A stretch of DNA of 64,000 nucleotides, taken from Terriglobus albidus. Its GTDB lineage: Bacteria; Acidobacteriota; Terriglobia; Terriglobales; Acidobacteriaceae. The translations under genes and the position numbers were made by a program. The DNA lies in NCBI RefSeq assembly GCF_008000815.1, contig NZ_CP042806.1, positions 2,170,001-2,234,000 on the forward strand. The letters are read 5' to 3'. Below are positions 4,610 through 51,130 of this stretch, one piece after another (position 1 is the first letter of the stretch; each line of letters starts with the position of its first letter). The notes beneath the pieces are model-generated. The model was given only the letters and a program-made list of their open reading frames with translations, had not been told where the DNA came from and did no database searches.

Positions 4610-5950
4610 TTAGATTCCGAGCTCGTTACGGATAGAGCTGGCGATCGCCTCGGCGTGATGCTTCATGCGAGCTTCGTCTTCCGCCTCGATCATCACGCGG
4701 GCAAGAGCTTCGGTGCCGCTGTAACGGATGACGACTCGGCCACTGTCCTTCAGCTCATCTTCGGCTGCGGCGATGGCGCTGACGATGGTGGGGAACTGGT
4801 CGAGCGGCTTCTTCTCACGCACCTTGACGTTGACGATCACCTGCGGGAAGACTTTGAGGTCTCCTGTCAGCTCTGCAAGCGATTTACCGCTGTAGTGCAG
4901 CACATTCAGTACAGCGAGCGCGGTCTGCAGGCCATCTCCTGTGGTGGAGAGAGCCGGGAAGAGGATATGGCCGGACTGCTCGCCGCCGAGCGATGCGCCT
5001 GTAGCCTGCATCTGCTCGAGGACATATTTGTCGCCTACCGGAGCGCGCAGCATCCTGATGCCGGAGCGCTTGAGTGCTGCTTCCAAACCCATGTTGGACA
5101 TGGTTGTGGCGACGACGAGATCGTTGGCAAGCTGTCCGCGTGCCTTTAGATCGCGTGCTGCCAGCAGCATGACGGCATCGCCATTCACGACCTGGCCGTA
5201 CTCGTCGGCAAAGAGAGCTCGGTCGGCATCTCCGTCGAAGGTGATGCCCATGGAGGCGCCGGAGGCTGTTACTTCGTCGGCGACGATCTCCGGATGCAGT
5301 GCGCCGCAGCCCTCATTGATGTTGCGGCCGTCAGGAGAGGCGTGGGTAATACGGATCTCTCCGCCAAGCTCTGCGAAGAGCTGTGCCGCAACGGAAGATG
5401 CTGCGCCATTGGCGCAATCGATAACGATGGTCTTGCCATCGAGAGAGAGGCCGGGAACCTGCCCGAGAAGGAACTGGATGTACTCGGCACGGTAGGCTTC
5501 ATCGGCTTCAGGCAGTGCATTGGCAGCGATGGAGTCATGAGCAAGGTTGCTGAGGTGCCGGAAGATCTCCTCTTCCATGGCCAGTTCTGTGGCATCGGGG
5601 AGTTTGTAGCCATCAGGGCCGAAGAGCTTGATGCCATTGTCCTGCCACGGATTGTGCGAGGCCGAGATGACAACGCCCGCGCCAAAGCCGTGTTTGCGTG
5701 TCAGATACGCCACAGCCGGGGTGGTGATGATTCCGGCAAGGTGCGCAATGGCTCCTCCCGCTGTGAGACCGGCAACGAGTGTGGCGGCGATCCACTCAGA
5801 GCTCTCGCGGGTGTCCATGCCAAGCAGGACGTCCTTTGAGTCCCGCAGGGAGTGTGCCAATGCAAGGCCGGCGGCGTAGATGGTCTTCGGGTCGAGCGGA
5901 GCTTCGCCGGCGACAGCACGGATGCCATCGGTTCCAAAGAGCTTTCGCAT
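4610..5950 (-). CDS. glmM: Phosphoglucosamine mutase
   Basis: GlmM interconverts glucosamine-6-phosphate and glucosamine-1-phosphate on the path to UDP-GlcNAc, the precursor of peptidoglycan and LPS. The 446-residue protein begins with the typical KLFGTDGIRAVAG, has the phosphoserine loop VISASHNPWQDNGIK (about residue 100), the metal-binding loop FDGDADRALFAD (about 240) and the sugar-binding GGEQSGHI and C-terminal RYSGTEALARVM phosphate-binding loop. All four domains of the alpha-D-phosphohexomutase family are therefore present. A Shine-Dalgarno before the ATG is weak. It fits with the peptidoglycan theme of the dcw cluster further along, although it is on the other strand. Confidence 0.97.
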   Translation of the reverse strand: MRKLFGTDGIRAVAGEAPLDPKTIYAAGLALAHSLRDSKDVLLGMDTRESSEWIAATLVAGLTAGGAIAHLAGIITTPAVAYLTRKHGFGAGVVISASHNPWQDNGIKLFGPDGYKLPDATELAMEEEIFRHLSNLAHDSIAANALPEADEAYRAEYIQFLLGQVPGLSLDGKTIVIDCANGAASSVAAQLFAELGGEIRITHASPDGRNINEGCGALHPEIVADEVTASGASMGITFDGDADRALFADEYGQVVNGDAVMLLAARDLKARGQLANDLVVATTMSNMGLEAALKRSGIRMLRAPVGDKYVLEQMQATGASLGGEQSGHILFPALSTTGDGLQTALAVLNVLHYSGKSLAELTGDLKVFPQVIVNVKVREKKPLDQFPTIVSAIAAAEDELKDSGRVVIRYSGTEALARVMIEAEDEARMKHHAEAIASSIRNELGI

Positions 5951-5977
5951 ATTGAATTTGAGGGTAACAGCTTGCCG

Positions 5978-7441
5978 TCAGGAACGCTTGCTGGTGACAG
6001 TAGCTTCCAGCGAGCCCTTGTGCAGCCGAGCGGTAATGGAGCTTCCGGGAGCGGCCTCGGAGGCGTCGCGCAGCAGCTTACCGTCTGCGTCATACACAAG
6101 GGCATATCCACGCTGCAGCACGGCAAGCGGAGACAGCGACTGAAGCGCGGTCGATGCGCCCTGCACGCGGTTCCGTTCGCTTGAAAGGCGATCGCGATGA
6201 GCGGTCAGCAGGCGGGTTTCAGCGATAGAAACGCGATGACGCGCTTGAGAGAGCTGCCGCGTCAGGTCGCGTGCAGCCAGGCGCTGATGCAGCGCAAGCA
6301 GACGTCGCTCATTGCGCTGAACCCCAGTGTTTACGGCAGAATTGGCGCGCCACGCAAGCTCATCCAGTCGTTGATAGCGGCGGCTGATGGAATCTTCCAC
6401 ACGATAGAGGATTGCCTGTGCATTGATGCGCGCAAAGCGCTGGCCGGCCTGCATGGTGGTATAGCGAGCGGCACGTACCAGCCGTTGGCTGAGTGTAGCT
6501 ACATGGTCTTCAATGCGATGCTGGGCGGCTGTAATGAGTTCTGCGGCGGCCGATGGAGTGGGCGCACGCAGATCCGATACAAAGTCGGCGATGGTGAAGT
6601 CAGTCTCGTGCCCGACGGCGGAGACGATGGGAAGCTCACTGCCCGCAATCACACGGGCGAGAGCCTCGTCGTTGAAGCCGGCAAGGTCTTCGGCAGAGCC
6701 GCCTCCGCGGGCAAGAAGGATGAGATCCACGGCGTGGGGAGTTCCTGTTGCCCGGTTGAAGTAACGGATACCGTTGGCGACTTCCAGCGGGGAACTGGCT
6801 CCCTGTACTGCGGCGGGGTAGACCAGCAGATCGAGGCAAGCGTGCCGTCGCCGGATGACATTGACGATGTCGCGGATGACAGCACCGGTAGGTGAGGTGA
6901 CGATGCCGATGCGTGTGGGAAAGGCGGGAAGCGGGCGCTTCCGGTCGGCATCGAAGAGACCTTCGGCCTGTAGGCGGCCCTTGAGCTGCTCAAAGGCAAG
7001 CTGCAGCGCTCCGGCTCCGCGGGGCTCAACTGATTCGGCGATGAGCTGAAGTTGCCCGCGCGATTCGTACACAGAGACGCGGCCACGGACCAGGACCTCC
7101 AGACCGTCTTCAATGCGGAAACGGTGTGTCTGTGCCTGGCGGCGAAAGAGCACGACGGGAAGCTGTGCCTCACCATCTTTCAATGTGAAGTAGACGTGGC
7201 CGGAGGTGGCTGGGCGGCAGTTGGAGACCTCTCCGAAGACGGAGATATTGCCGTATCCCTTTTCGAGCTCGCCCCGGATCAGCGAGACCAGTTCGGCGAC
7301 GGAAAACGTGGTGCGGCGCGGCGCCGGCCGGGCCGCAGGTTCAGCCGGCTGAGGCGCAGCTTCGGGTTCTTCGAACGCGAAGCCAAGCTGGGGCGCGGTA
7401 TCCGAGGTACGGCCTGAGCGGAGCTGTGCCAGCGTGGGCAT
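5978..7441 (-). CDS. xseA: Exodeoxyribonuclease VII large subunit
   Basis: XseA is the catalytic subunit of ExoVII, which degrades single-stranded DNA into oligonucleotides from either end. The 487-residue protein has the N-terminal OB-fold (TTFSVAELVSLIRGELEKGY, GEVSNCRPATSGHVYFTLKD, about 44-140), the catalytic core (PLPAFPTRIGIVTSPTGAV, ARGGGSAEDLAGFNDEALARVI, PIVSAVGHETDFTIADFVSDLRAPTPSAAAE) and a long helical coiled C-terminal region. The first 40 residues are a Pro/Ala-rich extension that is longer than in E. coli. The small subunit XseB is not seen in the window. GAGG precedes the ATG. Confidence 0.96.
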   Translation of the reverse strand: MPTLAQLRSGRTSDTAPQLGFAFEEPEAAPQPAEPAARPAPRRTTFSVAELVSLIRGELEKGYGNISVFGEVSNCRPATSGHVYFTLKDGEAQLPVVLFRRQAQTHRFRIEDGLEVLVRGRVSVYESRGQLQLIAESVEPRGAGALQLAFEQLKGRLQAEGLFDADRKRPLPAFPTRIGIVTSPTGAVIRDIVNVIRRRHACLDLLVYPAAVQGASSPLEVANGIRYFNRATGTPHAVDLILLARGGGSAEDLAGFNDEALARVIAGSELPIVSAVGHETDFTIADFVSDLRAPTPSAAAELITAAQHRIEDHVATLSQRLVRAARYTTMQAGQRFARINAQAILYRVEDSISRRYQRLDELAWRANSAVNTGVQRNERRLLALHQRLAARDLTRQLSQARHRVSIAETRLLTAHRDRLSSERNRVQGASTALQSLSPLAVLQRGYALVYDADGKLLRDASEAAPGSSITARLHKGSLEATVTSKRS

Positions 7442-7451
7442 AGCCTCTAGG

Positions 7452-7676
7452 TTATCGCCGGAAGTGGCTGAGGAGATAGAGGACCAGTGACAGGACGATG
7501 CTGATTACGATACTGGTCCCTAAAGGGATGAAAATCTGCCAGTTACGTCCACGGAAGCTGATATCGCCGGGAAGCCGGCCCAGGGGGAGCGAAAACTTCC
7601 CGGCAACCAGGAAAATGAGACCCGCGAGAATCAACAGGCAGCCGGTAGCGATCAGCATGCGGCCGATGGAGGTCAT
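7452..7676 (-). CDS. DUF2905 small membrane protein
   Basis: The 74-residue protein has two predicted membrane spans (about 5-27 and 46-68) separated by the loop LPLGRLPGDISFRGRNWQIF, which is the DUF2905 signature (LGxLPGDI). The ATG at 7676 was chosen because an upstream in-frame methionine would add 26 residues unlike this family. The function is unknown. It sits 10 bp upstream of xseA in the same direction and 8 bp after the response regulator stop, so it is probably cotranscribed with both. Confidence 0.85.
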   Translation of the reverse strand: MTSIGRMLIATGCLLILAGLIFLVAGKFSLPLGRLPGDISFRGRNWQIFIPLGTSIVISIVLSLVLYLLSHFRR

Positions 7677-7684
7677 TGACACGC

Positions 7685-8050
7685 CTAGGCTAAAAGGTCG
7701 TTGGCTTCGCGCAGCAGATCGGTTGGATGAAGCGGTTTGGTTAGAACAGACCACGGTTGCGGCTGCTCTCTGGAGCGGTCCATCAGACTTTTCATCATGG
7801 AGTAGTAGCCCGTGAAGAGCAGGACACGGCAGTCCGGCTGCTCTTCCGTCAGGCGTGTGGCGAGAGCGACACCGTCCTCTCCGGGCATATTCACATCGCA
7901 GAGAAGGAGGTTTGGGTGGAAGTCACGGGCAGCAGACAAGCCATCTTCCGCTGTATAAACAGCGCGTGCATCGAAGCCATTTTCCCGAAAAATGATCCGC
8001 AGGGTATCGGCTACGAGATGCTCATCATCAACAACCAGGATACGGCGCAT
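7685..8050 (-). CDS. Single-domain response regulator (CheY-like)
   Basis: This 121-residue protein is one receiver domain without an output domain. The acidic pair (VVDDE, residues 7-9), the phosphoacceptor Asp52 in LLLCDVNMPGEDG, the Thr of LLFTGYYS and the Lys of VLTKPLHP are all present, so it should be phosphorylatable. The start at 8050 is preferred over one 16 codons upstream because AGGAG lies 6 nt before it and the domain begins immediately (MRRILVVDDE). No histidine kinase is encoded nearby, so it is an orphan; the partner may be a hybrid kinase elsewhere. Confidence 0.9.
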   Translation of the reverse strand: MRRILVVDDEHLVADTLRIIFRENGFDARAVYTAEDGLSAARDFHPNLLLCDVNMPGEDGVALATRLTEEQPDCRVLLFTGYYSMMKSLMDRSREQPQPWSVLTKPLHPTDLLREANDLLA

Positions 8051-8147
8051 ATGTATCTCCTGCTTCGGTGGAATGCAGGGCAGGTCAAATTGCCACAAGA
8101 ACGACAGCGTTTCCGAAGTACTTGGGGGTATATTGCGCCGTGCCGAC

Positions 8148-8192
8148 GCCGGAAATCCAATTAAACCTTCTTAAGAATGCTGGATTTCCGGC
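8148..8192. terminator. 12-bp perfect inverted repeat, putative terminator
   Basis: GCCGGAAATCCA (8148-8159) pairs perfectly with TGGATTTCCGGC (8181-8192) across a 21-nt AT-rich loop. It lies between the TPR gene, which ends at 8211 on the minus strand, and the response regulator. There is no T-run on the minus strand after the stem, so it could be a Rho-assisted or 3'-stabilising hairpin rather than an intrinsic terminator. Confidence 0.5.
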
Positions 8193-8210
8193 CCGGTACT
8201 GAAATGGGAT

Positions 8211-8933
8211 TTACTGACGCGCGCCGGGATTCAGACGCTGATCGGCGATGGAGCCGGCAGCAGTCTTGGCTTCCTTGTCCTTGAGCTGTGCGTAGATTTT
8301 GCGAGCCTCAGCCTGCTGGCCCTTGGATTCGTAGAGAGAGGCGAGCTGCAGCTGGGCGGTTGCGGCCGGAACCGAATGATTCGGCTTGGCGATGAGTTGG
8401 TTGTAGATGTCGATTGCCTTCTGGTCCTGTCCGTTCTGGCGGTACAGGCTGGCCAGGGAAAGCTTCGCCAGCGAGGCGAGGTCGCCGTTCCAGGAGCCGG
8501 CAACCTTTTCAAGGGTGGCCTGCGCCGTGGAGATCTGGTTCGCTTCGATGGCGGTCAGGCCGGCGAAGTAGAGCGCGAGCTTGCCGCTTGCGGTCATGCC
8601 GTAGCTGTCAGCCACCTGCTGGAACTTCTCATGGGCAGCCTTGGCGCGCTCCTGTGCCGAAGGGAAGGTCTTGACCCCCTGCTGCGGCGGAACACCGGGT
8701 TCGGCGATGTCGGACTGATAGACCCCCATAGCCTCGCCAAACGCGGCATTGGCGGAGTTGGAACGCACGTTGTAGATCACCAGGCCGCCAATCACGACGA
8801 GCAGAACAACAAGGATACCGACGACGTAGCGAATCACGGCGCTGCGATTCTGCTGGGCCCACTTCAGGCCGTGCTCGGTTGCGGCGACGTAGGCGTCTGG
8901 CTGCTTCAGGGAGTGGCGGGTCTGGCTGTCCAA
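8211..8933 (-). CDS. Membrane-anchored TPR protein (YfgM-like)
   Basis: The 240-residue protein has a cytoplasmic N-terminus, one membrane span (about 33-55, VIRYVVGILVVLLVVIGGLVIY) and a periplasmic part with several tetratricopeptide-like helical hairpins (for example ASGKLALYFAGLTAIEANQ, LAKLSLASLYRQNGQDQKAI and TAQLQLASLYESKGQQAEARKIY). The topology and repeat spacing resemble YfgM, a periplasmic helper at the Sec translocon, but sequence alone does not prove that role. The start is TTG at 8933 with AAGGA 8 nt upstream; no ATG fits better. The gene stands alone between two hairpin or repeat structures. Confidence 0.75.
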   Translation of the reverse strand: MDSQTRHSLKQPDAYVAATEHGLKWAQQNRSAVIRYVVGILVVLLVVIGGLVIYNVRSNSANAAFGEAMGVYQSDIAEPGVPPQQGVKTFPSAQERAKAAHEKFQQVADSYGMTASGKLALYFAGLTAIEANQISTAQATLEKVAGSWNGDLASLAKLSLASLYRQNGQDQKAIDIYNQLIAKPNHSVPAATAQLQLASLYESKGQQAEARKIYAQLKDKEAKTAAGSIADQRLNPGARQ

Positions 8934-8996
8934 CGTGATGTTCCTTAGGTCTCGGTAGAGGTGCCGTGCCCGGAATGGGCACGTAATTTCTAAGTT

Positions 8997-9110
8997 TAGA
9001 GCATTTTCCCTGTTGCCGGGAATCCCGGAGGGGTATGCAGCGGCGTTTTCATTGCGGAAACGCCCATAGATGCGGAAGCCCTGCCCTACACCTACAGGGA
9101 AAATGCTCTA
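8997..9110. repeat. Palindromic stop-abutting element, copy A
   Basis: This 114-bp element is bounded by TAGAGCATTTTCCCTGT and its inverted copy ACAGGGAAAATGCTCTA and has a central hairpin (GGCGTTTTC, loop ATTGC, GGAAACGCC). Its right end touches the TGA stop of the small gene at 9111 read on the minus strand. Near-identical copies are at 27577 (inverted orientation) and 54716, a diverged copy at 26320 and a truncated one at 51132. No reading frame spans it. Confidence 0.9.
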
Positions 9111-9413
9111 TCAGTGACCGGTTGCCGCTTCAATCTCGGTTACCTGCAGCACTTCGCCGGGTTTCAGGTAGCTCTTGCGGCGAAACCAGTCCTCCATGGA
9201 GCTCTGTAGACGACTGAGCGGCACACGGTAACCGGCCTCCATGAGGCCATCGGCGACAGGAAGGGTGTCGTCGAAGACGGCATCGTTGGTGAAGTTTCGC
9301 ATCGCGAAGGAGTCAATATGAGCCAACGGAGCCGGGCGGGAAGAGCCGTCCGGAGCGATGCAGGCGATGCTGATACGGCGGATGAACATAATGCGGCCTT
9401 CTGAATAGACCAT
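9111..9413 (-). CDS. Hypothetical protein, 100 residues
   Basis: I do not recognise this protein. It is 100 residues from the first ATG, or 92 from a second ATG (residue 9), and has no signal peptide or membrane span. It contains a short beta-rich start (MFIRRISIACIAPDGSSRP) and the segment PLSRLQSSMEDWFRRKSYLKPGEVLQV. It ends directly at palindromic element A and lies 7 bp after the phosphatase gene in the same direction, so the two are likely cotranscribed. Confidence 0.55.
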   Translation of the reverse strand: MVYSEGRIMFIRRISIACIAPDGSSRPAPLAHIDSFAMRNFTNDAVFDDTLPVADGLMEAGYRVPLSRLQSSMEDWFRRKSYLKPGEVLQVTEIEAATGH

Positions 9414-9420
9414 AACTATC

Positions 9421-9984
9421 TCAAAAGGGTTCGTGAATCAGCTGTTGCGAAGCGAGCTTTCCGTCGTGGCTGTAGTGAAGCTCGATAACCCAGTTGAAGA
9501 CATCGTCCGGCCAGTGCTCGCCGCCGATCAGACGTGTGGAATCCGCCCCGAGTTTGGTGAGCAACTCAGGAATACCGCCATGCCTCCAGGAGATGAGAAT
9601 GACTTTCCCGTGCGATTCCTTCTGGAGCTCGGTGACGAAGTCATCGTTCTTCTTCTCGACGAAGTGCGTGTCGATGGGTTTGCGAATGGCTGTGCTGAGC
9701 GGCTCTACGGTCAAGCGCGGACGCAGGCTGTTCTTGCTGTCAGTCGCGGCGAAGATCGTATCGATGGTGAGGTTCTGGCCGCTGGGATCGACGAAGGGAG
9801 CGAAGTAGGCCGCATACCGTTGCGCGCGAGCTTCGCCGGCAGGAGTCAGACGGTCGCCCACCACAGGCTTCTCCGCGTGCCGGATGATGAGCAGCGTTGT
9901 GTCACGCAGACCCTCCTGCGCATGGCAGAGCAGGGAAGAAGCGCCCATGAGGGCGGCACACAGGAGAGAGCGGCGAAGCAGCAT
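9421..9984 (-). CDS. Secreted histidine-phosphatase superfamily protein
   Basis: The 187-residue protein starts with a signal peptide (LLRRSLLCAALMGASSLLCHAQ, residues 2-23). The mature part has the core TTLLIIRHAEKP, in which RHAE is the RHG/RHA phosphohistidine motif of the histidine phosphatase superfamily, followed by LTPAGEARAQRYAAYF. A later VILISWRHGGIPELL provides the second catalytic histidine typical of this fold. It would act in the periplasm; the substrate is unknown. Acidobacterial and other bacterial homologs of this short secreted type are common but uncharacterised. Confidence 0.8.
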   Translation of the reverse strand: MLLRRSLLCAALMGASSLLCHAQEGLRDTTLLIIRHAEKPVVGDRLTPAGEARAQRYAAYFAPFVDPSGQNLTIDTIFAATDSKNSLRPRLTVEPLSTAIRKPIDTHFVEKKNDDFVTELQKESHGKVILISWRHGGIPELLTKLGADSTRLIGGEHWPDDVFNWVIELHYSHDGKLASQQLIHEPF

Positions 9985-10025
9985 GGCTCCAGCGTGCCGC
10001 AGGAAGCTTAAGGACGAATGAAAAT

Positions 10026-10472
10026 CTATTCGGAGAGCGGGAGCTTATGAGGCTCGCCCGGAAGGACGAAGTCGAGCTCGTCCGGGTGCGAGTCGCGATT
10101 CACGAGCGGGAGCTGCGGCAGCTTGGAGGTATGTCCGGCTTCGCGGACCACCTGGTCAACGTGCTGCAACACCTCGTCAATGGACATGGTGTACATCTCG
10201 CGGCCATTGTCGTAGCCGGTCTCGATGATGGACTTCAGGTAGTGTCCCGCAGCCTGCGCCGCGAGATAGTCGGTAATGACGTGACCGTTCTTCGCCTTCT
10301 GCTGCACCCACGCGTCATTCGGCATGGCGATCCAGACAGGGCGGCCGTTCACGGCGAAACGGATATCGGTGGCGTCGGCGTGACGCGTTGCGATGGCGAC
10401 GACCGTGCCCTTCCAGGTGCAATGCAGGTCTTCCCCGGTAAACCGGTCGCGAGCGTGAAAGTCCTCGTACAT
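10026..10472 (-). CDS. Conserved hypothetical protein, 148 residues
   Basis: I cannot assign a family. From the ATG at 10472 the product has 148 residues; a TTG at 10508 would add 12 more (residues PRHHPSFKLVD), and neither has a clear Shine-Dalgarno. It shows no signal peptide or membrane span. The N-terminal half looks like a small beta domain (WKGTVVAIATRHADATDIRFAVNGRPVWIAMP) and the C-terminal half is helical (YLAAQAAGHYLKSIIETGYDNGREMY, IDEVLQHVDQVVREAG). It lies between the phosphatase and the tandem secreted paralogs on the same strand. Confidence 0.6.
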   Translation of the reverse strand: MYEDFHARDRFTGEDLHCTWKGTVVAIATRHADATDIRFAVNGRPVWIAMPNDAWVQQKAKNGHVITDYLAAQAAGHYLKSIIETGYDNGREMYTMSIDEVLQHVDQVVREAGHTSKLPQLPLVNRDSHPDELDFVLPGEPHKLPLSE

Positions 10473-10527
10473 ATCTACGAGCTTAAATGAGGGGTGGTGC
10501 CGGGGCAAGGTGGACCGGTTCAGAGAT

Positions 10528-11616
10528 CTACCAGCCTGCGATGGCGAGGTTTGAGAGCGAGTTTGAGGAGTCGTTCGCTCCCGGGCCCAGATAGGCGTTC
10601 CATCCGGATAGGAAGCCGGCGGTGGAGACCTGGTTCATCTCTGGCCGGTAGACGCTGGTAATGAATGAGAAGTCCGTTACCCGCCCGTCTACGACGCAGG
10701 GAGAATAGGAACGATGCTTCATCTCTTCAGCGACATAGCCCTGGGTGAGGGTGTCGGCCCGCGATAGGACACGGATGTTGTCCGGCTTGCCGTTGCGGTC
10801 GACATGGACATACGCCTGCAGCCGGGGGGTGTGCGACTGCGGCAGGCCGACGGGGCTGTATCCTCCCTGGTCGCAGGCGGCTAGCTCAGCGCCATGGGCC
10901 GGATGCAGGCGAATATTGGAGGGCGGGTTGTCCAGGGAATGATCGAGTGGCTCCAGCAGGGTGACCGTCAGCTCGGCGATCTTTCCCTCTTCGCCGAACA
11001 CTGTAATGCGGCCGGGGACGCGATGTTCACGGAGCGTATTCCAGTCGAGGATCGCGGTCACGATGCCGTTGCGCTTTACGGCTCGCAGTTCTCCGCTTGT
11101 GGCCTGGAAGCAGGTTGTTGGCGCGTCGACCAGGGAGACGGCATACATGCCGGACTCATCCGTTCGTTGCGTGCCGAAGCAGGCCAGGTTGCCATGACCG
11201 GGAGCATGTTCGCTCAGGAAACGGTCACGCGGAAGTACATCGGGGACCCCGGTCTCTCCAAGTCCGGCGAGGGCGAGCAGAAGTGCTGGTGAAAGAGAGA
11301 TATTGCGGACGTCGACGAACGTTCCCTCTGCGGTCGTGTAGGTCGTGAAGTGCTGCTTCGTAGAGGTAAACACCCGGCGCTGGCTGTCAGGGGAACTATA
11401 GAAGTCTTCGACCGTTCCGGCCTGGATCGGGTGTCCTTGTTGGTCGTAGAGCTGGAAGCTGACAATGCGATGCCAGGGCTGACGGTAGGCCTCACGGACT
11501 TCGAGACGCTGTGCCCGAAGCACGTCGGCGGGCTTCCATGGTTGTTCCGCCGGGGCCCCCATGACCGCGATTCCGCAGAGTGCGAAGATCAGTGCCCGCA
11601 TCATGCCGAACATCAT
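10528..11616 (-). CDS. Secreted protein with TonB-C-like end, paralog 1
   Basis: The 362-residue protein has a signal peptide (about 1-21) and is clearly related to its upstream neighbour at 11655. Shared landmarks are a QPWHRIV / RPWHRIV segment near residue 48, TVEDFYSS / TVEDTVYSP, YTTAEGTFVDVRN / YTLPEGTFTDRKN, a cysteine pair in ACFGTQRTDESG / SCYQIERRDDSG, and a C-terminal block with VHVDRNGKPDNIRVLSR ... YSPCVVDGRVTDFSF. That C-terminal block resembles the TonB C-terminal fold found alone in many secreted proteins. The function is unknown. The start could be either of two nearby ATG pairs. Confidence 0.7.
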   Translation of the reverse strand: MMFGMMRALIFALCGIAVMGAPAEQPWKPADVLRAQRLEVREAYRQPWHRIVSFQLYDQQGHPIQAGTVEDFYSSPDSQRRVFTSTKQHFTTYTTAEGTFVDVRNISLSPALLLALAGLGETGVPDVLPRDRFLSEHAPGHGNLACFGTQRTDESGMYAVSLVDAPTTCFQATSGELRAVKRNGIVTAILDWNTLREHRVPGRITVFGEEGKIAELTVTLLEPLDHSLDNPPSNIRLHPAHGAELAACDQGGYSPVGLPQSHTPRLQAYVHVDRNGKPDNIRVLSRADTLTQGYVAEEMKHRSYSPCVVDGRVTDFSFITSVYRPEMNQVSTAGFLSGWNAYLGPGANDSSNSLSNLAIAGW

Positions 11617-11654
11617 AGCCCCGGTGCGCCATGGTTGGGGGGAAGGTTATTTGC

Positions 11655-12668
11655 TTAGAATCGGGAAAAAGGCCCCTTTCGGAACCGAAAGCGATCGGGT
11701 CCCCACCAGAGCGTCGTCAGACCATAATCTGTCGCTTTTCCGGAGATTACGCATGGAGCGTATGTTTTCTTCCGGATCTCGTCCTGCGCCTCGCCCTCGA
11801 ATAAAGCGGAGGCGGAAGCGATGACGGATGTGCGGTCAACCTTTCCCTGTTCATTGATATGAACATCGAGGAACACGCCACGTGTACTGAGCGAGGTCGG
11901 AGCGGATGCGGTTATCTCGGTTCCTCCGGAATCGCATGAGCTGATCTCGGATCGTTCGCCAGGATAGATCGCCTCCGAAGGCCTCTGGATGGTTCCGTTT
12001 TCAGAAAGAGATTCCAGCAGTGTCGTCTCGAGAGAGGCGAGGGTGCCTCCCTCAGTCGCGACCAGGACGCGGGAGGGAACGTATCTCTGATTGAGCAGTA
12101 GCTGCGCGTTAACCGCAGTCATGATGTGTTCCAGGGTCACAGTTCGTAGTATCCCGCCTTGATCGAAGCAGAATGAAGGAACACTTCTGCTGTTGAATGC
12201 GATGAATCCGGAGTCGTCCCGCCTTTCGATCTGGTAGCAGCTGAAGTTAGTGTCAGGGAGAGCCGCAATAGCGAGAATGCGGTCCTTAGCCAGGAACTGC
12301 GGCACAAGTTGAGGGGACATGCCTTGCAAGCCGAAGCGAAGCATTCCAGGAAGGATCGCGTTCTTGCGATCCGTAAATGTTCCTTCCGGAAGCGTGTAGA
12401 TCGAGAACGATTCCTTCGCGGAACTGTAGGTGCGTTTCTGGTGAAACGGAGAATAGACGGTATCTTCTACCGTGCCGGTGATCTCTTTCTTCTTATCGCC
12501 GGGAAAAAGAATGAAGTGAACGATGCGATGCCAGGGTCTTGAATAAGCAGTGACGAATGCATCTCGTTCGGCAGCAAGCAGGCTCTGCGGAGACGGCTGC
12601 CTGCCGGGCTGCGTGCCGATCAGCGAGGCTGACGATAGCAGGAAAACGCTAAGGAGAACTCGCCTCAA
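11655..12668 (-). CDS. Secreted protein with TonB-C-like end, paralog 2
   Basis: The 337-residue protein is the tandem paralog of the 10528 gene, with the same order of landmarks: signal peptide (RRVLLSVFLLSSASLIGTQ), RPWHRIVHF, TVEDTVYSPFHQKRTY, YTLPEGTFTDRKN, SCYQIERRDDSG, a long variable middle and a TonB-C-like end (VHINEQGKVDRTSVI, KKTYAPCVISGKATDY). The start codon is TTG with AGGGGG 4 nt upstream. The pair probably arose by local duplication; the amino acid identity outside the landmarks is low, so the duplication is old. Confidence 0.7.
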   Translation of the reverse strand: MRRVLLSVFLLSSASLIGTQPGRQPSPQSLLAAERDAFVTAYSRPWHRIVHFILFPGDKKKEITGTVEDTVYSPFHQKRTYSSAKESFSIYTLPEGTFTDRKNAILPGMLRFGLQGMSPQLVPQFLAKDRILAIAALPDTNFSCYQIERRDDSGFIAFNSRSVPSFCFDQGGILRTVTLEHIMTAVNAQLLLNQRYVPSRVLVATEGGTLASLETTLLESLSENGTIQRPSEAIYPGERSEISSCDSGGTEITASAPTSLSTRGVFLDVHINEQGKVDRTSVIASASALFEGEAQDEIRKKTYAPCVISGKATDYGLTTLWWGPDRFRFRKGPFSRF

Positions 12669-12697
12669 TCGACCCCCTAGTTGAGGGCTCGATCATC

Positions 12698-13105
12698 TCA
12701 CTTGACGACAAGCAGGGCAATCATCAGGGCGATGGCGGCGAGCAGCAGTGCAAGCAGGATCCAGAACCAGCTCTGGAAGCTGTGGAGCTGATGCTCCAAC
12801 TGATCGATCTGGCGGCTGCTTGCCTCCTGGTGGGTGCGGAGCTCGGTGGAGAGATGCTCGATCCGCTGGTTCAGGTCCTGATGTGTTTCAAAGATCTGCT
12901 TGCTGAGGGAGACGTGAGAACGGGCAACCTGGCCGAGCTCGGTTTTCAGCGCCTCCGTCGCCTCGTTGAGCGGAGTGAGGTCGAGTTCCGCCGGCGCAGC
13001 GGCAGGAGCAGCCAGGCGAGAAGCGACCAGTGACTCAAGCAAAGGAATCAGGCGGATGAGCTTGGGAAGGTGTTCCGTCAGTTGGAGAAGAAGCTTGGGC
13101 CACAT
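12698..13105 (-). CDS. Coiled-coil protein with C-terminal membrane anchor
   Basis: The 135-residue protein has an amphipathic N-terminus (MWPKLLLQLTEHLPKLIRLIPLLESL), a Pro/Ala-rich linker, a long predicted coiled coil (about 45-108) and a single hydrophobic span at the very C-terminus (WFWILLALLLAAIALMIALLVV). This makes it a tail-anchored type membrane protein. I do not recognise a family. It is on the same strand as the SRPBCC gene 38 bp upstream and may be cotranscribed with it. Confidence 0.65.
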   Translation of the reverse strand: MWPKLLLQLTEHLPKLIRLIPLLESLVASRLAAPAAAPAELDLTPLNEATEALKTELGQVARSHVSLSKQIFETHQDLNQRIEHLSTELRTHQEASSRQIDQLEHQLHSFQSWFWILLALLLAAIALMIALLVVK

Positions 13106-46200: not shown

Positions 46201-46398
46201 TTCTGCACCGGTCAAGATGTTCAGAAGCTTGACGTTCGCATCCGGAATTCGTGCAGTGGTCACATCGACCACCGTTCCGGTCACGTTCGCCGTGCTGGTT
46301 TGAGCAAACATACGAAGTCCCGCAAACAAGCAGAGACTGAATATGCGTCGAAGCAACGGGTCACAGCCTCTTCGAGGTATTTGCTTTAGACAGCTCAT
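43207..46398 (-). CDS. Oar-like TonB-dependent receptor
   Basis: The 1063-residue outer-membrane protein has a signal peptide (RRIFSLCLFAGLRMFAQ), an N-terminal carboxypeptidase-regulatory (CarboxypepD_reg) domain (VTGTVVDVTTARIPDANVKLLNI ... GDYTLEIDRSGFAAIQITGLTL), a plug (NMPLNGRSFQDLIAMTPGVTTQSP, GSFSVNGQRIDGNGYFVDGVSAN) and a large barrel ending in RSLQISLRLHF. It has no STN domain. Oar-like receptors import oligosaccharides or peptides or act in surface assembly; the ligand is unknown. Its ATG overlaps by 4 bp (ATGA) the stop of the sigma-fusion gene, so the two are translationally coupled. Confidence 0.92.
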   Translation of the reverse strand: MSCLKQIPRRGCDPLLRRIFSLCLFAGLRMFAQTSTANVTGTVVDVTTARIPDANVKLLNILTGAESNSRTNHFGMFFLPGVIPGDYTLEIDRSGFAAIQITGLTLHVGDTKNFLIRMPVGPVAQTVDVNQSEASFDTGNISVGTVVDRGFVANMPLNGRSFQDLIAMTPGVTTQSPQTTGESFGARGSFSVNGQRIDGNGYFVDGVSANVGAGLLTGHQKIPSDGSLAALTALGTTQSLVAVDALQEFRVMTSTYPPEYGRLPGGQFTFLTHSGTNTAHGSLFNYVRTDAADATDWYTSFNKADRRTAYHQDDFGGTLGVPIILPGIYRGIDKTFIFLSYEGLNVRQPSAPQVQFVPDVTLHGDALPLQAVLNLFPQVNHAFSLPSAISTGLAPYPGGATSYPGIVNATSVRLDHTLSSKLSGFLRYGETPSRSEAGNLSSLTQVHADTRTFTLGATAQLASRINNELRIGYAASHSSLTTTLDNYYYSLDLNFGTRLNPLIGIPPSSESASAAVFIQIPGAGPSEIKTDRASSALRQWNIRDTFNAQAGRRLLRFGIDQRQIVSTIKPPALSIEADFFSTDSLLQNRASAISITRSVPATPIFQQFAAFLQDQWRVSQSFTITSGLRWEASPPPHGKNGLDAYTLLGDIADPSRLTLAPRGTPLWHTAKFNIAPSVGGVWALKSTPGGELLIRAGAGIFFATANRPAAEAFSALGFSATNHPINVPVPVTPAQLDFSATPPGPYINTAAFAFPPHLQLPYALQWNIGIEKSLGKRQTLNISWVGTNGRRLLQKQRTNISSENPMFGEVYFFPGHLTSSYQALQIKFQRAISHGLQVLGNYGWSHTLDYGSTDPAFPLTRGNSDLDVRQNFQTALSWDENLRPGGKMSQALIGGWGVDARLAIRTAFPIQPLGNIFSDPASGNRYYSGVDLIPGRQLYLYGTQYPGGRMINGGPNVAAPAFALPDGARGGTAPRNLLRGFGAYQTNLALRREFALRTKAKLQVRLDAFNIFNHPEFGYIDPTLTDTLFGQATLMLNQSFGSTGSLYEPGGPRSLQISLRLHF

Positions 46399-49370
46399 TG
46401 CTCATCGCGATGCCGCAACGGGCCTTTAGAGTCACTGGGTCTGACTTCGTGTGCATCGAGATGAGAAAGGCGTTGAGTAAAGCTAACGATTGCTGCGGCC
46501 TCCCGCAACGGAATGGAATTTCTTGCGTGAGTTAGAAGTGGTTCACCATTCCGATCAGCACTCTTTACTACGCCAGATGCAAACGCACCGCCGATAATAC
46601 GACTCAACTCCTGTGTCTTGTGCAGTAGTCGCTCGGTGGCACGTGCCAAAGTTGCCGGATCGTCGATATTCGCATACTCTCCGCCGTGCGCCGGGAGCGA
46701 TTCGTGATCATCCGGTATTATTCTGCTCAGCTGATCATTGAGTGCACTTAGCTCAATTTCCAGCGCGAATGCATGCGCTGAAGCCATCCTGGCCCATTGT
46801 CGCTGGTACGCCGGGTTTGCTGCGCTCAATTCACGCGCAGTGAAGCTTGTTCCGAGACGATTCAAGGCATAGGCACGCTGTAATGCACGCTGAGCGTGTT
46901 CGCGAGCTTCTTGCGAAAACTGCGAAACGGCAGACTTTTCGCGATCTCCCGTCCAACCTTTGGATTCGAAGTATTGCTTCAGAACAACCTCTGATGGCGC
47001 CTCGGTACGCGTGACGCTATATACGCTTGTGGTGGGAACTGTGCTTTTTGGCGCCGAAGGAGCTGCGCTGCGTAAAGAGCTCTGTGAATTTAATTGAATG
47101 GTCAGAAGTTGCTGATTCGGCAATGTCTCCAATCGCGCCAGCAACTGCGACCTACGCGCATTGTCCGCAACCGTTCCATAGATGCGTATCCGCCCATCCG
47201 GTGCGCGGACAACGTCGATGGGATCACCGATGTCGGCTCCCATCTGGTTGAGCTCATAGAGTGCTCCAATCTCCAATTGCACCAACTGCGTGTTAGTGTT
47301 TGGCTTCGATCGGTCGCGCATGGAAGCATCACCCTTGTCGACCGGGCTTCCTCCCATACCCTCTTCCTCGTTAGAGAAGACGGAGTCTGGAACGTTGGAA
47401 GATGGTTGGTAGTCTTGACCTGTTTGTAGCAGCTGCAGCTCACGGATCGGCGAATCCTTATGGAGGTATAACTCTTCACCGACCGCATTCAGGTGACTAT
47501 CGAGCACAAGTACTGCTGATAACAGACGAGGCTTATTGTCGTCTTCCATTGTTGCGGATAGCTTGTATTCCCCGTTGACCACGGATACTCGTATGGATTT
47601 TCCGCCGAGTGCACGGAAGTCCGCGGAAGAGAGGTCTTGTTTCCATAGATCATTCATGGCCAGCTGACGAGCGGGAGCGTCGATCTCCGTATTTGACGGG
47701 GCGATCGATACTCCGGATCTTCCGTTCTTATCTTTCCATTCGGACGCGATGACATGGTGGTGCAAATCATAGAGCCGCCGGATGTGGCGCCCCGTCTGGC
47801 CTTCCTGCCAAGTCTCAACGATACCCCGAAGGACGAGTCCGTCTGAAGTTGTCTCGATCAGGTTCATCGTCTGATGTCTTGTCGCCCCGGCCATCTTGGC
47901 CGCTTCCATTGCAACGGCCTGGTTCAAAACAGCGGAGGCATCAAGTCGCGGTTGATGGATATAGCTCATAAAATATGCACCTGCACACGCTACGAACGCG
48001 AGGGCAAGACCCCATGCCATCGCCGGCGATGGCACCAGCGTGGAAATTAGCTTTTTGATCCACGATGGTTGATCCGTGCCAACGAGCGCCTGAAGCGTAG
48101 AAGGCCGCAACTCTTCCATCGCATCCTGTATGCCTGTCGAGGCCTCCGGATCGGAATACACAACCTCACACTGTAGGCCGAGACCATCAAAGGAAAGATT
48201 CAATTCCAGTCTTCTCGTATCACTAAGAAGGGTTTGCTGCGTAAGCCGCTCGGGGCCATCAGGAGGCAGACTGTCGATCGCGATCATGGCGAGACGAATC
48301 TGTTGCTCGCTGAATACCTCAACACAATTTGGCTGTTCGGAATATTCAAGGCGAATCGACAACGCGCTTTGTATCCCCTGAACGTCGTGGAAGGCTACTA
48401 CCCGTGTATTTACTGCAATGAATAGGCTTTGCGGCCGATGATGATAGATGCGCTCTTTCTCTCTGCGCATCGTCTCAAACATGACCTTGACGCTCTTTCG
48501 ATCTGTACCGCCCTGCGCCAGGTGCTGCATATTGAGGACTCGGTCAAAACCATCAAGCGCATCGCGATCTTTCAATGTCGGCCGTCGGAAGTGACGATCG
48601 ATGAGTGCGAGACACCGTTGGCAGCTGACGATGTGGGAGAGCAGCTCACAAGGGATTGGGACGGGGGCATCAATTTCGTAATATGCCAACAAGTCTTCTT
48701 CCGGCAGGCAGGCCCCTCTTCTTGCTTGAAGGATCGTCTCGCGGAGCTCTTGGAAGAGCTCCGGCGTGGGCACGACAATTGGTGACTGGCGGGGTAAGGG
48801 CAAGGAGCCCTGCTTGATTGGACGCACTTTGTCCGGTGCAGAAAGATGTTCCTTCAGCTCCGTACGAGCACTTTTCAGTTTGTTGTAGATGGCAGACACC
48901 GGCAAGCAGGCAATCTCCGCGATTTCCCGAGGGAAGTATCCATGGAAAAAGTGAAGGATGAAGTAGCTGAAGCCTTTCGATGCCTCCTTTCTCCAAACCG
49001 AGTAGCCACAGATTGTGCGGAGATCGTTCTGGATTAGGACTGATCCGCTACGGTCTCGTCCTGAAAGGGCGAAGTGCACATTGTCGAAGTCTCCAATACT
49101 CACAAAACGCAAAGCCTCGCGAGAGGCTCGAGTCATGCGTGATAAATAAACGTGGCGAAGTGAGGTGTAGAGGTACCCGTCCTGATTGGAGATCCGGTTG
49201 AAATCCGTCTTTGTCAGGATGAGGTAGAGACACAGGTCGTGAACAATTTCGCGTGCCTCGCCTGCATCGCCGCGGGTCAGTAGAATCCCCCAATGCAGGA
49301 GCTGATCGTAGCGGCTCTCGAGGACGGCCTCTGTCTCGAAGGCCCTCCAGCTTGTCTTCTTTTGCTCCAT
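46395..49370 (-). CDS. Membrane-spanning ECF sigma / anti-sigma-like fusion protein
   Basis: The 991-residue protein combines modules usually encoded separately. Residues about 18-85 resemble ECF sigma region 2 (RYDQLLHWGILLTRGDAGEAREIVHDL, DGYLYTSLRHVYLSRMTRASRE). Residues about 132-177 match region 4, a helix-turn-helix with HGYFPREIAEIACLPVSAIYNKLKSARTELKEHL. His246, Cys250 and Cys253 form an HX3CX2C motif like zinc anti-sigma factors. One membrane span (about 450-470) leads to an extracytoplasmic part with a BON-like segment (about 700-762) and a helical C-terminus. It is the first gene of the operon with the Oar-like receptor. Its roles as sigma factor and as sensor are inferences from the modules. 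Confidence 0.82.
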   Translation of the reverse strand: MEQKKTSWRAFETEAVLESRYDQLLHWGILLTRGDAGEAREIVHDLCLYLILTKTDFNRISNQDGYLYTSLRHVYLSRMTRASREALRFVSIGDFDNVHFALSGRDRSGSVLIQNDLRTICGYSVWRKEASKGFSYFILHFFHGYFPREIAEIACLPVSAIYNKLKSARTELKEHLSAPDKVRPIKQGSLPLPRQSPIVVPTPELFQELRETILQARRGACLPEEDLLAYYEIDAPVPIPCELLSHIVSCQRCLALIDRHFRRPTLKDRDALDGFDRVLNMQHLAQGGTDRKSVKVMFETMRREKERIYHHRPQSLFIAVNTRVVAFHDVQGIQSALSIRLEYSEQPNCVEVFSEQQIRLAMIAIDSLPPDGPERLTQQTLLSDTRRLELNLSFDGLGLQCEVVYSDPEASTGIQDAMEELRPSTLQALVGTDQPSWIKKLISTLVPSPAMAWGLALAFVACAGAYFMSYIHQPRLDASAVLNQAVAMEAAKMAGATRHQTMNLIETTSDGLVLRGIVETWQEGQTGRHIRRLYDLHHHVIASEWKDKNGRSGVSIAPSNTEIDAPARQLAMNDLWKQDLSSADFRALGGKSIRVSVVNGEYKLSATMEDDNKPRLLSAVLVLDSHLNAVGEELYLHKDSPIRELQLLQTGQDYQPSSNVPDSVFSNEEEGMGGSPVDKGDASMRDRSKPNTNTQLVQLEIGALYELNQMGADIGDPIDVVRAPDGRIRIYGTVADNARRSQLLARLETLPNQQLLTIQLNSQSSLRSAAPSAPKSTVPTTSVYSVTRTEAPSEVVLKQYFESKGWTGDREKSAVSQFSQEAREHAQRALQRAYALNRLGTSFTARELSAANPAYQRQWARMASAHAFALEIELSALNDQLSRIIPDDHESLPAHGGEYANIDDPATLARATERLLHKTQELSRIIGGAFASGVVKSADRNGEPLLTHARNSIPLREAAAIVSFTQRLSHLDAHEVRPSDSKGPLRHRDEQ

Positions 49371-49398
49371 TAAACAGTAAAGAGAGAACCTGGCTGTG

Positions 49399-49483
49399 AA
49401 TCTACCCTCGGGCTCAATTTTTATTTTCTCATCCTAAGAATCGCAAATTCGACCATATTTCTTTCGCTCGTCATGGGTAGATT
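49399..49483. promoter_or_regulatory. Inverted repeat pair AATCTACCC / GGGTAGATT in a divergent promoter
   Basis: AATCTACCC (49399-49407) and GGGTAGATT (49475-49483) are perfect inverted copies 67 bp apart in the 143-bp gap between the sigma-fusion gene and the GT-C-like gene. They could be paired operators that act by looping, or promoter elements of the two divergent genes. No regulator can be named. Confidence 0.4.
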
Positions 49484-49513
49484 GCAAGGCGGGAAACGCT
49501 CTTTCAATGCAGA

Positions 49514-51130
49514 ATGCGGCAACACTTTTTCGGATCACGCTCCATCGCAATAGCGCACCGCCTGACTCCTGTTCCTATTTCTCTCGGCACTAGCTCACAG
49601 ACTCTGCGGGATTTTGTTCCGCAGACAAGCGCAATGCTTCTGGTGTCCTCTTGTTTTTTGATCGTTTGTGTGGTTTTCTTTGCAATCGCTACTATTCACT
49701 GGCCGTTAGCGGGCGACGCTTCGCTCATGCACTATATCGCTTTTCTGATGGACAACGGCCGCGTGCCATATCGCGATATCGCAGATATGAATCTGCCTGG
49801 CGCCTATTCAATCGACTACGCCGTTATGCATGTGCTGGGGGGAGGATCGTTGGCATGGAGGTCCTTCGATCTTGGCCTGACGCTTGCGGGCGCATTGGCG
49901 ATGATTTGTATTTCGCGTCCGTGTGGATGGTACCCCGGAATTTTTTCCGGTGCGCTCCTGGCCCTCATTCATGGCCAGGACGGCATCTTTGAACCTGGGC
50001 AACGCGATTTTGTCATTGCGGTTCTCCTCCTTATCGCGTACGCCGCGTTCTTTCAAGCATTTAGGAAGAATTTTCCGCCTTGGATGTTTCTCTTTGGTCT
50101 ATGCGTGAGTATGACAGGAACGATCAAGCCTGTCTTTCTTCCGTTCGGAGCTGTGCTGCTTGGTTGCGCGACCATTATGCGCAGAACGAAATGCCAACCA
50201 GTCTCATGGTTCATACTTTGGGGCGCAGGCGGTTTGTTCGTTCCGATCGTGGCTATGTATTCGTTTCTGAGAGTCATGCATTGTACGGAGGAGTTTTTCA
50301 CAGTAGTGCGGGGATTGATGCCGTATCACGCGTCATTAGCGCGAAAGCCCCTGGGCTTTCTGCTTGTGCATTCGATCTCTCCACTGTTGCCACTAGCTAC
50401 CGTCTGGGGCTGTTGCCTGTTCTCCCAATGGAGGCAATGGAAAAATTGGGAAGGCGTCACTTTACTGATTGGACTGTTTTTCGGATTGGGGTCTTACGTC
50501 ATACAGGGGAAGGGGTACTCCTACCATCGCTACCCATTTATCGCACTCTTCCTTTTGGTTATGGCCATTGACTTTCAACGTTGCCTTACGGGCAATCGAT
50601 GGACGCGAAGGCTGGGATGGGCCGGCATAGCCTTTGGAACCCTGTTTGTAGCACCTGTCTCTACACTCAAGGCCAGTCAATATGACTGGCGCAACGTCGA
50701 GTTCTCAACGATGTTGCAGAGCGATCTGCGTCGGCTTGGCGGTGAAGAGCTTTCGGGACAGGTGCAATGTATCGATACGGTTGGTGGCTGTTTTGACGTT
50801 CTTTATGAAATGAGACTTCTTCAAAGGGATCGTTTTGTTTACGATGAGTTTCTCTTCGCTCCCGCTCGGGATGAATCAGTGATCAATAGCCGTGAGGAAT
50901 TCTTAGCTGAGATCTATGAGAAGCCCCCTCGCGTTGTTGTCATCACGGATGATCTTTTCCCCTCGGGGCCAGCGGGGTTTCAAAAGCTGGAAAGGTGGCC
51001 GCAGTTCGCGAGCTACCTTCAAGCGAATTACCGTCTTTGCGCTGAGGGAACGCCCCTTAGTGATCTCAGGTGGTGGAGCCGCAAGCAGCCGCCTCATTCC
51101 TACAGAATTTTCTGCAGCCTTCGCCCCTGA
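49514..51130 (+). CDS. Polytopic GT-C-like glycosyltransferase
   Basis: The 538-residue protein has about ten to twelve hydrophobic spans. The first periplasmic loop carries GDASLMHYIAFLMDNGRVPYRDIADMNLPG, similar to the GD/ED loop and Pro-rich segment of GT-C enzymes such as ArnT or PMT-like glycosyltransferases that use polyprenyl-linked sugars. A soluble C-terminal part of about 140 residues follows. The acceptor is unknown. By eye the codon use is more AT-rich than in the dcw genes. The stop is one base before the truncated palindromic element E. It is divergent from the sigma fusion gene. Confidence 0.7.
   Translation: MRQHFFGSRSIAIAHRLTPVPISLGTSSQTLRDFVPQTSAMLLVSSCFLIVCVVFFAIATIHWPLAGDASLMHYIAFLMDNGRVPYRDIADMNLPGAYSIDYAVMHVLGGGSLAWRSFDLGLTLAGALAMICISRPCGWYPGIFSGALLALIHGQDGIFEPGQRDFVIAVLLLIAYAAFFQAFRKNFPPWMFLFGLCVSMTGTIKPVFLPFGAVLLGCATIMRRTKCQPVSWFILWGAGGLFVPIVAMYSFLRVMHCTEEFFTVVRGLMPYHASLARKPLGFLLVHSISPLLPLATVWGCCLFSQWRQWKNWEGVTLLIGLFFGLGSYVIQGKGYSYHRYPFIALFLLVMAIDFQRCLTGNRWTRRLGWAGIAFGTLFVAPVSTLKASQYDWRNVEFSTMLQSDLRRLGGEELSGQVQCIDTVGGCFDVLYEMRLLQRDRFVYDEFLFAPARDESVINSREEFLAEIYEKPPRVVVITDDLFPSGPAGFQKLERWPQFASYLQANYRLCAEGTPLSDLRWWSRKQPPHSYRIFCSLRP

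Follow-up and report, generated by a model that had tools for sequence, protein, structure and literature searches.

One acidobacterial protein appears to combine a sigma factor, its anti-sigma segment, a membrane anchor and an outside sensor beside a TonB-dependent receptor

In the RpoE-RseA-RseB and AlgU-MucA-MucB systems, a sigma factor, a membrane anti-sigma and a periplasmic regulator each have their own role. Single-chain versions are also on record: in the passages cited here, IutY of Pseudomonas putida, assigned to extracytoplasmic function (ECF) group ECF243, is the sigma/anti-sigma hybrid of Iut cell-surface signalling (PMC5411451, PMC8999054), and proteolytic release has been proposed for ECF52 (SCO4117 of Streptomyces coelicolor), along with ECF48 and ECF53 (PMC5826349, PMC8999054). 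For PupR, an outside part made up of an all-beta subdomain and then a small STN subdomain has been described (PMC7186176). Here we analyse a stretch of 64,000 nucleotides from Terriglobus albidus (contig NZ_CP042806.1, positions 2,170,001 to 2,234,000), referred to as the window and numbered from its first letter, with a gene for a single chain that carries an ECF sigma factor, a zinc anti-sigma (ZAS)-type motif, a membrane tether and an outside part. The gene is in an operon with that of a TonB-dependent receptor; a preliminary description had reported this arrangement, and it proved to be real. Our preferred interpretation, to which we give a probability of roughly two in three, is that the single chain is a membrane-tethered ECF sigma factor together with its own anti-sigma and sensor, and that it controls the receptor operon.

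Sigma2 and sigma4, the domains by which ECF factors are recognized, are both found in the fused protein, and the HX3CX2C motif of ZAS type that follows them, which would bind zinc, is present in all 34 fused loci we counted (Table 1). The first outside domain is predicted to adopt the half-barrel fold of the LolA/RseB superfamily, of the LolA, LolB, RseB and MucB kind. This assignment is drawn from structural models only, since hhalign, run with 49 sequences against E. coli RseB alone, returned a probability of 0.2%; the domain is also without a Pfam match. Pfam matches to BON-like domains are weak, with expectation values (E) of 0.015-0.065 in one or two members each. A FecR-like outside part was considered and rejected, there being no Pfam FecR or DUF4974 match. 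Carbohydrate-binding matches were likewise lacking: Pfam gave none for the window protein with E allowed up to 1, and the 13 families listed at E up to 0.1 for 21 members include none. At E 1e-3, the fused reading frame is its own sole match in the 6.4-Mb genome.

Outside this genome the fusion recurs. Counting the window, we found 34 fused loci (L031-L051, L123, L124, L127-L131, L071, L073, L074, L076 and L078; L072, L075 and L077 are repeats of L031, L032 and L033), several of which are paralogues within one genome, with five in G035; L046 stops at a contig end after 551 residues. Eight named relatives belong to Acidobacteriaceae or Acidobacteriales, including Paracidobacterium acidisoli and a Granulicella metagenome-assembled genome. 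Within the window's family, matches came from 23 of 150 genomes and fused forms from 13 of the same 150, and such forms extend into two further families (G700, G763). The class- and phylum-wide counts are minimum figures, as these profile searches scored only about two candidates in each genome: any match at 1e-20 in at least 53 of 399 genomes across the class, and any match in at least 15 of 396 across the phylum. A first contig scan with the single window protein as query detected no relative. A quick tree was built from 56 sigma sequences. One branch (Shimodaira-Hasegawa-like approximate likelihood ratio test, SH-aLRT, 84) sets the 33 full-length fused sequences apart, a split relative adjoins them (95), and 16 two-gene sigmas form another group (92). 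One locus outside the count, L126 (G482), has its fused gene and neighbouring receptor gene both broken into several frames, as if the two had been lost together.

The receptor is the constant neighbour of the fusion. The next same-strand gene encodes a homologue of the window receptor at every one of the 33 loci, window included, for which sequence is available (the window, 19, six of which one was seen through L075 and five are named loci, and seven). At L032 and L044 the receptor is visible only at its start before the contig ends, and that of L041 is broken into two frames. In the window, the stop of the fused gene overlaps the receptor start by 4 bp (ATGA). The window receptor matches the OMP_b-brl_4 barrel at E 4.5e-106, with a plug match just below cut-off, and OMP_b-brl_4 and CarboxypepD_reg matches were obtained for all 32 receptors scanned from fused and two-gene loci. 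We consider that the fused protein probably controls this adjoining receptor. The genome encodes at least 65 such receptors (65 of 142 candidates were scored, the window's own lying outside those 65). A search for a second sigma-linked receptor, made with these 65 and with 42 sigma matches, gave one correctly ordered pair within 6 kb, which was not such a module. At L038, L040, L042, L128 and L132, the gene after the receptor encodes a protein of 724-803 amino acids with S9 prolyl-oligopeptidase matches of varying strength (just below cut-off in L042), hinting that some of these receptors import peptides; the corresponding gene is thioredoxin-like in L034 and L037, and L063 and L049 gave no such match.

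We then considered how the locus might be transcribed. An element, GGGTAGATT-N14/15-CTCTTTA, is common to the upstream regions of six orthologous loci (the window, L031, L071, L073, L074 and L078). It was defined on the fused genes' own upstream regions, and L130 and L127 joined later. The element stands 7 bases before the ATG in most of them, and at 4 or 7 in L074 and 3 or 6 in L078, according to the start chosen. With at most one mismatch, second copies are present in all seven loci scanned. At the same threshold, seven whole genomes contain 14 matches (10 with spacing 14 and 4 with spacing 15), as against 0 at both spacings for a reversed-pattern control, and the fused locus accounts for 13 of these 14, all inside about 8 kb. 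The fourteenth is on another contig (G842:C60; L153, ~735-2842), ahead of a gene for a 687-amino-acid protein. In the other loci fetched, 1.166 Mb in total with overlaps entering the sum twice, up to two mismatches returned two copies of one site only (L127/L086), and that site immediately precedes what is probably the true start of L127, the closest relative of the window; three mismatches added 21 further matches. The sigma factor, in our reading, probably serves mainly its own locus. Generic ECF promoter strings were dropped as near the shuffled background, and no sigma-70-like promoter was listed in the region between the fused and divergent genes.

Some observations on individual sites stand apart from this. 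The 687-amino-acid protein of L153 is unrelated and, by eye, has repeated GG-W stretches; its first codons resemble those of the fused gene, possibly a promoter capture that broadened the regulon. In L044, L049, L050 and L129, the 75 bp ahead of the fused gene contain other shared elements (judged by eye: GGCGAATAT, GATT and TAGAG-like); distinct elements in another clade are expected if every clade has its own promoter. L032, L033 and L076 resemble the window in having CTCTTTA or CTCTTCA at seven bases from the ATG, and differ from it in the upstream half-element.

The second copies point to a further set of candidate targets, to which the window's divergent gene belongs. A relative of its product in L127 is 58% identical, is encoded next to the fused gene and matches PMT_2 (mannosyltransferase-like) at E 2.3e-9. 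The predicted second targets of L071, L078 and L130 have weak OmpA-like barrel matches, L073 encodes a homologue, and that of L074 is a PMT_2-like membrane protein; at L031, a LysR gene lies 77 nt from the second copy. In L071 the second target starts 6 bases from the element; for the other five loci the distance is larger or uncertain.

Table 1. Features of the fused gene and its surroundings, in window coordinates.
Feature	Position	Strand	Remarks
TonB-dependent-receptor-like protein, 1063 aa	43207..46398	-	CarboxypepD_reg, plug, OMP_b-brl_4
Fused sigma / anti-sigma / membrane / sensor protein, 991 aa	46395..49370	-	uninterrupted open reading frame; 33 other fused loci
Outside C-terminal helical part	46461..46991	-	residues 794-970; model
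Outside domain 2, BON-like alpha/beta	47085..47303	-	residues 690-762; model
Outside domain 1, predicted LolA/LolB/RseB/MucB-like fold	47349..47948	-	residues 475-674
Membrane span	47961..48023	-	residues 450-470; hydropathy
Cytoplasmic beta domain between zinc motif and membrane	48135..48500	-	residues 291-412; model confidence (pLDDT) mostly 70-86
HX3CX2C zinc anti-sigma-like motif	48612..48635	-	residues 246-253; present in 34/34 fused loci
Sigma region 4	48840..48971	-	residues ~134-177; TIGR02937 at 137-176, E 4.5e-4; low-confidence model
Sigma region 2	49113..49343	-	residues 10-86
Promoter-like element GGGTAGATT-N14-CTCTTTA	49378..49407	-	7 nt before fused-gene ATG
Second copy GGGTAGATT-N15-CTCTTTC	49475..49505	+	8 nt before divergent-gene ATG
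Divergent gene, 538-aa membrane protein, glycosyltransferase-like	49514..51130	+	window protein without Pfam match; predicted second target

The fused form has relatives in which the parts are encoded separately. At 16 clean two-gene loci (L052-L054, L057-L066 and L132-L134; L055 has a shifted frame and L056 meets a contig end), a separate ECF sigma gene overlaps or abuts a gene whose product of ~590-660 amino acids comprises ZAS motif, membrane span and sensor, and the receptor gene then follows in 14 of the 16. The distance from zinc motif to membrane span is 72-89 residues in these 16 proteins as against 204 in the window protein (motif at 246, span at 450), so that the fused chains contain an extra beta domain for which the two-gene anti-sigmas have no room. 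In a distant family of the phylum, L122 (G797, 7739-12727) is a split relative with a different partner: a 458-amino-acid anti-sigma with a zinc motif, a beta-domain region and a span (the latter judged by eye) is encoded before a 195-amino-acid sigma resembling the fused ones, and a gene for a CHAT-TPR protein comes next. Because the beta domain also occurs in this split form, it seems to be tied to the sigma lineage rather than to the fusion as such. An isolated 129-amino-acid reading frame in L125 (G130) matches the cytoplasmic beta-domain region alone and is probably a relict. At L055 (G072, 4923-7544), a two-gene locus reads as one 873-amino-acid frame through a frame shift inside sigma4.

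In the mechanism we favour, the ZAS-type segment would hold the N-terminal sigma silent against the inner membrane in the resting state. The outside part (LolA/RseB-like domain, BON-like domain and helical tail) would read the state of the partner receptor, or a ligand that the receptor delivers. The signal would then free the sigma, most likely through proteolysis in two steps, the last of them at an M50 site-2 protease; the genome offers candidate proteases in four M50 and two S41 matches. In FecIRA/IutY cell-surface signalling, the sigma is released through cleavage by Prc and RseP. The freed sigma would transcribe from GGGTAGATT-N14/15-CTCTTTA promoters, and its targets would be almost only local, namely the operon of fused gene and receptor plus one neighbouring gene, usually for an envelope protein.

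A number of results weigh against this mechanism. The preliminary description had noted helices of both sigma regions. TIGR02937 matches residues 137-176 (E 4.5e-4), and Pfam Sigma70_r2 has no match in the window's fused protein, so that the sigma could be weakened. Model quality is poor for sigma4 and the zinc segment, and model confidence is low for residues ~200-290, where a four-helix anti-sigma fold was sought. If the sigma-like domain were no working sigma at all, the chain would be an anti-sigma or adaptor for another sigma and the element would belong to another regulator; a window protein under the sigma cut-offs and 42 other sigma-region-2 matches in the genome speak for this, which we nonetheless judge improbable. 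As for the element, when three mismatches in its 18 bases were allowed, three genomes yielded 4 matches and the reversed control 5, and the upstream half-element alone occurs 10 times in the window with 11.5 expected; with neither the loosened pattern nor the half-element enriched, the element carries weight only in its near-exact form. Under uniform base composition, chance alone would supply about 1.4 of the matches in the seven genomes. In L073, the copy that belongs to the fused gene itself deviates at three positions, the element is missing upstream of the other fused clades, and an unbiased dyad search of 33 upstream regions found 6 against 4-5 in shuffles. No receptor was found in the next frame at two of the 16 two-gene loci (L133, L134). 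Finally, the earlier suggestion of one-protein surface signalling keeps its TonB-receptor operon and loses the usual receptor domain: at E 0.01, Pfam STN matched 0 of 32 receptors, and the window receptor likewise gave no match.

The confinement of the element bears on whether the sigma leaves the membrane at all. Were it never released, the chain, as it is made and inserted into the membrane, would keep the locus there, and a change of its conformation would let the tethered sigma fire in cis on promoters beside its own gene; one chain would then join the roles of RpoE, RseA and RseB and pass receptor state to local transcription without a soluble sigma. Nearly all predicted promoters do belong to the fused locus, which has 13 of the 14 genome-wide matches, and both window copies are within 140 bp of the fused-gene start. 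However, ECF sigmas that are released also commonly have small, local regulons, and one element match sits on another contig (G842:C60, L153). In the passages cited, truncated IutY is active without a signal, and truncated SCO4117 is reported to support the same model (PMC8999054). Tethered action seems unlikely to us, and so does its version with three roles in one chain. A different question is what the outside part detects. RseB and MucB sense mislocalised lipid, lipoprotein or outer-membrane-protein fragments, and the LolA/RseB/MucB-like fold, together with predicted second targets that are envelope genes (weak OmpA-like barrels, PMT_2-like proteins), makes it possible, if doubtful, that the same happens here and that the receptor is regulated cargo only. 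Function does not follow from a shared fold, however, and the one-to-one partnership in 33 of 33 loci and the co-variation of the outside part favour a dedicated partner. Distances among fused proteins track those among receptors: a Mantel test on 30 pairs gave r 0.50, a value reached by 0 of 5000 permutations, with 0.56 for the outside part and 0.37 for the sigma part. This correlation is confounded by species descent, and fused protein and receptor have the same nearest neighbour in only 13 of 30 cases; both points count against the mechanism set out above. That an assembly error or frameshift merged two genes, an alternative raised in the preliminary description, has a negligible chance of being correct. 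L055, which reads as one frame through its shifted sigma4, illustrates that merging can occur, but the 33 other fused loci already refute it for the window: all 34 have the zinc motif, they come from many genomes and assemblies, and 33 of their sigmas form one group (SH-aLRT 84).

It appears that, in soil Acidobacteria, a single protein unites a switch for genes with its own brake, an anchor in the membrane and a sensor on the outside. The idea of a sigma/anti-sigma hybrid, established by experiment for a single Pseudomonas protein, is represented in Acidobacteriota by a family; as many as five copies were seen in one genome (G035), each adjoining its own receptor. Through this family, part of the acidobacterial receptor repertoire, a large one with at least 65 homologues in this genome, is linked to regulation, and a predicted promoter and a set of predicted targets become available for tests. 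Its fused, two-gene and split forms allow the merger of sigma and anti-sigma to be traced.

The preliminary description had left the novelty of the one-protein idea to be checked, and the idea has precedents in IutY and ECF52 (PMC8999054, PMC5411451, PMC5826349). The principle is already known and it is the acidobacterial version that looks new; we found no description of a fused acidobacterial family in the open-licence literature. Like the window protein, IutY is one polypeptide with a cytosolic ECF sigma, one span and a periplasmic regulatory part, and has a TonB receptor gene adjoining it. As described in the cited text, however, IutY runs from sigma through the span to a periplasmic domain, whereas the window protein adds a ZAS motif and a cytoplasmic beta domain before the span; its outside part is LolA-like and BON-like by prediction, and its receptor has CarboxypepD_reg and no STN match. 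ECF52, in the account cited, has the same order of sigma, zinc finger, span and extracytoplasmic domain in one chain that we find in the window protein. It is actinobacterial, with a proline-rich region and a carbohydrate-binding module, in contrast to the acidobacterial family, where a LolA-like sensor is predicted, no such module was matched in the window protein and a receptor gene lies in the operon. To our knowledge, ECF52 has no TonB receptor.

RpoE-RseA-RseB and AlgU-MucA-MucB likewise form one signalling unit from a sigma, a membrane anti-sigma and a periplasmic regulator of LolA fold, but as three separate proteins (in keeping with the E. coli gene order) rather than as one chain. FecI-FecR-FecA and PupR-PupB resemble the present locus in uniting sigma, membrane regulator and TonB receptor, PupR also in the all-beta subdomain of its outside part, and differ in their separate sigma, the N-terminal signalling domain of their receptor and a FecR-type regulator in place of ZAS. 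The genes lie together at 33 of 33 fused loci, as in FecIRA and IutY, yet because the receptors are without an STN match, a system that would work like cell-surface signalling falls outside the FecIRA/IutY class. What sets the acidobacterial family apart is the combination of ZAS and beta segments, a predicted LolA-like sensor, receptors without an STN match and promoter-like elements that are almost purely local.

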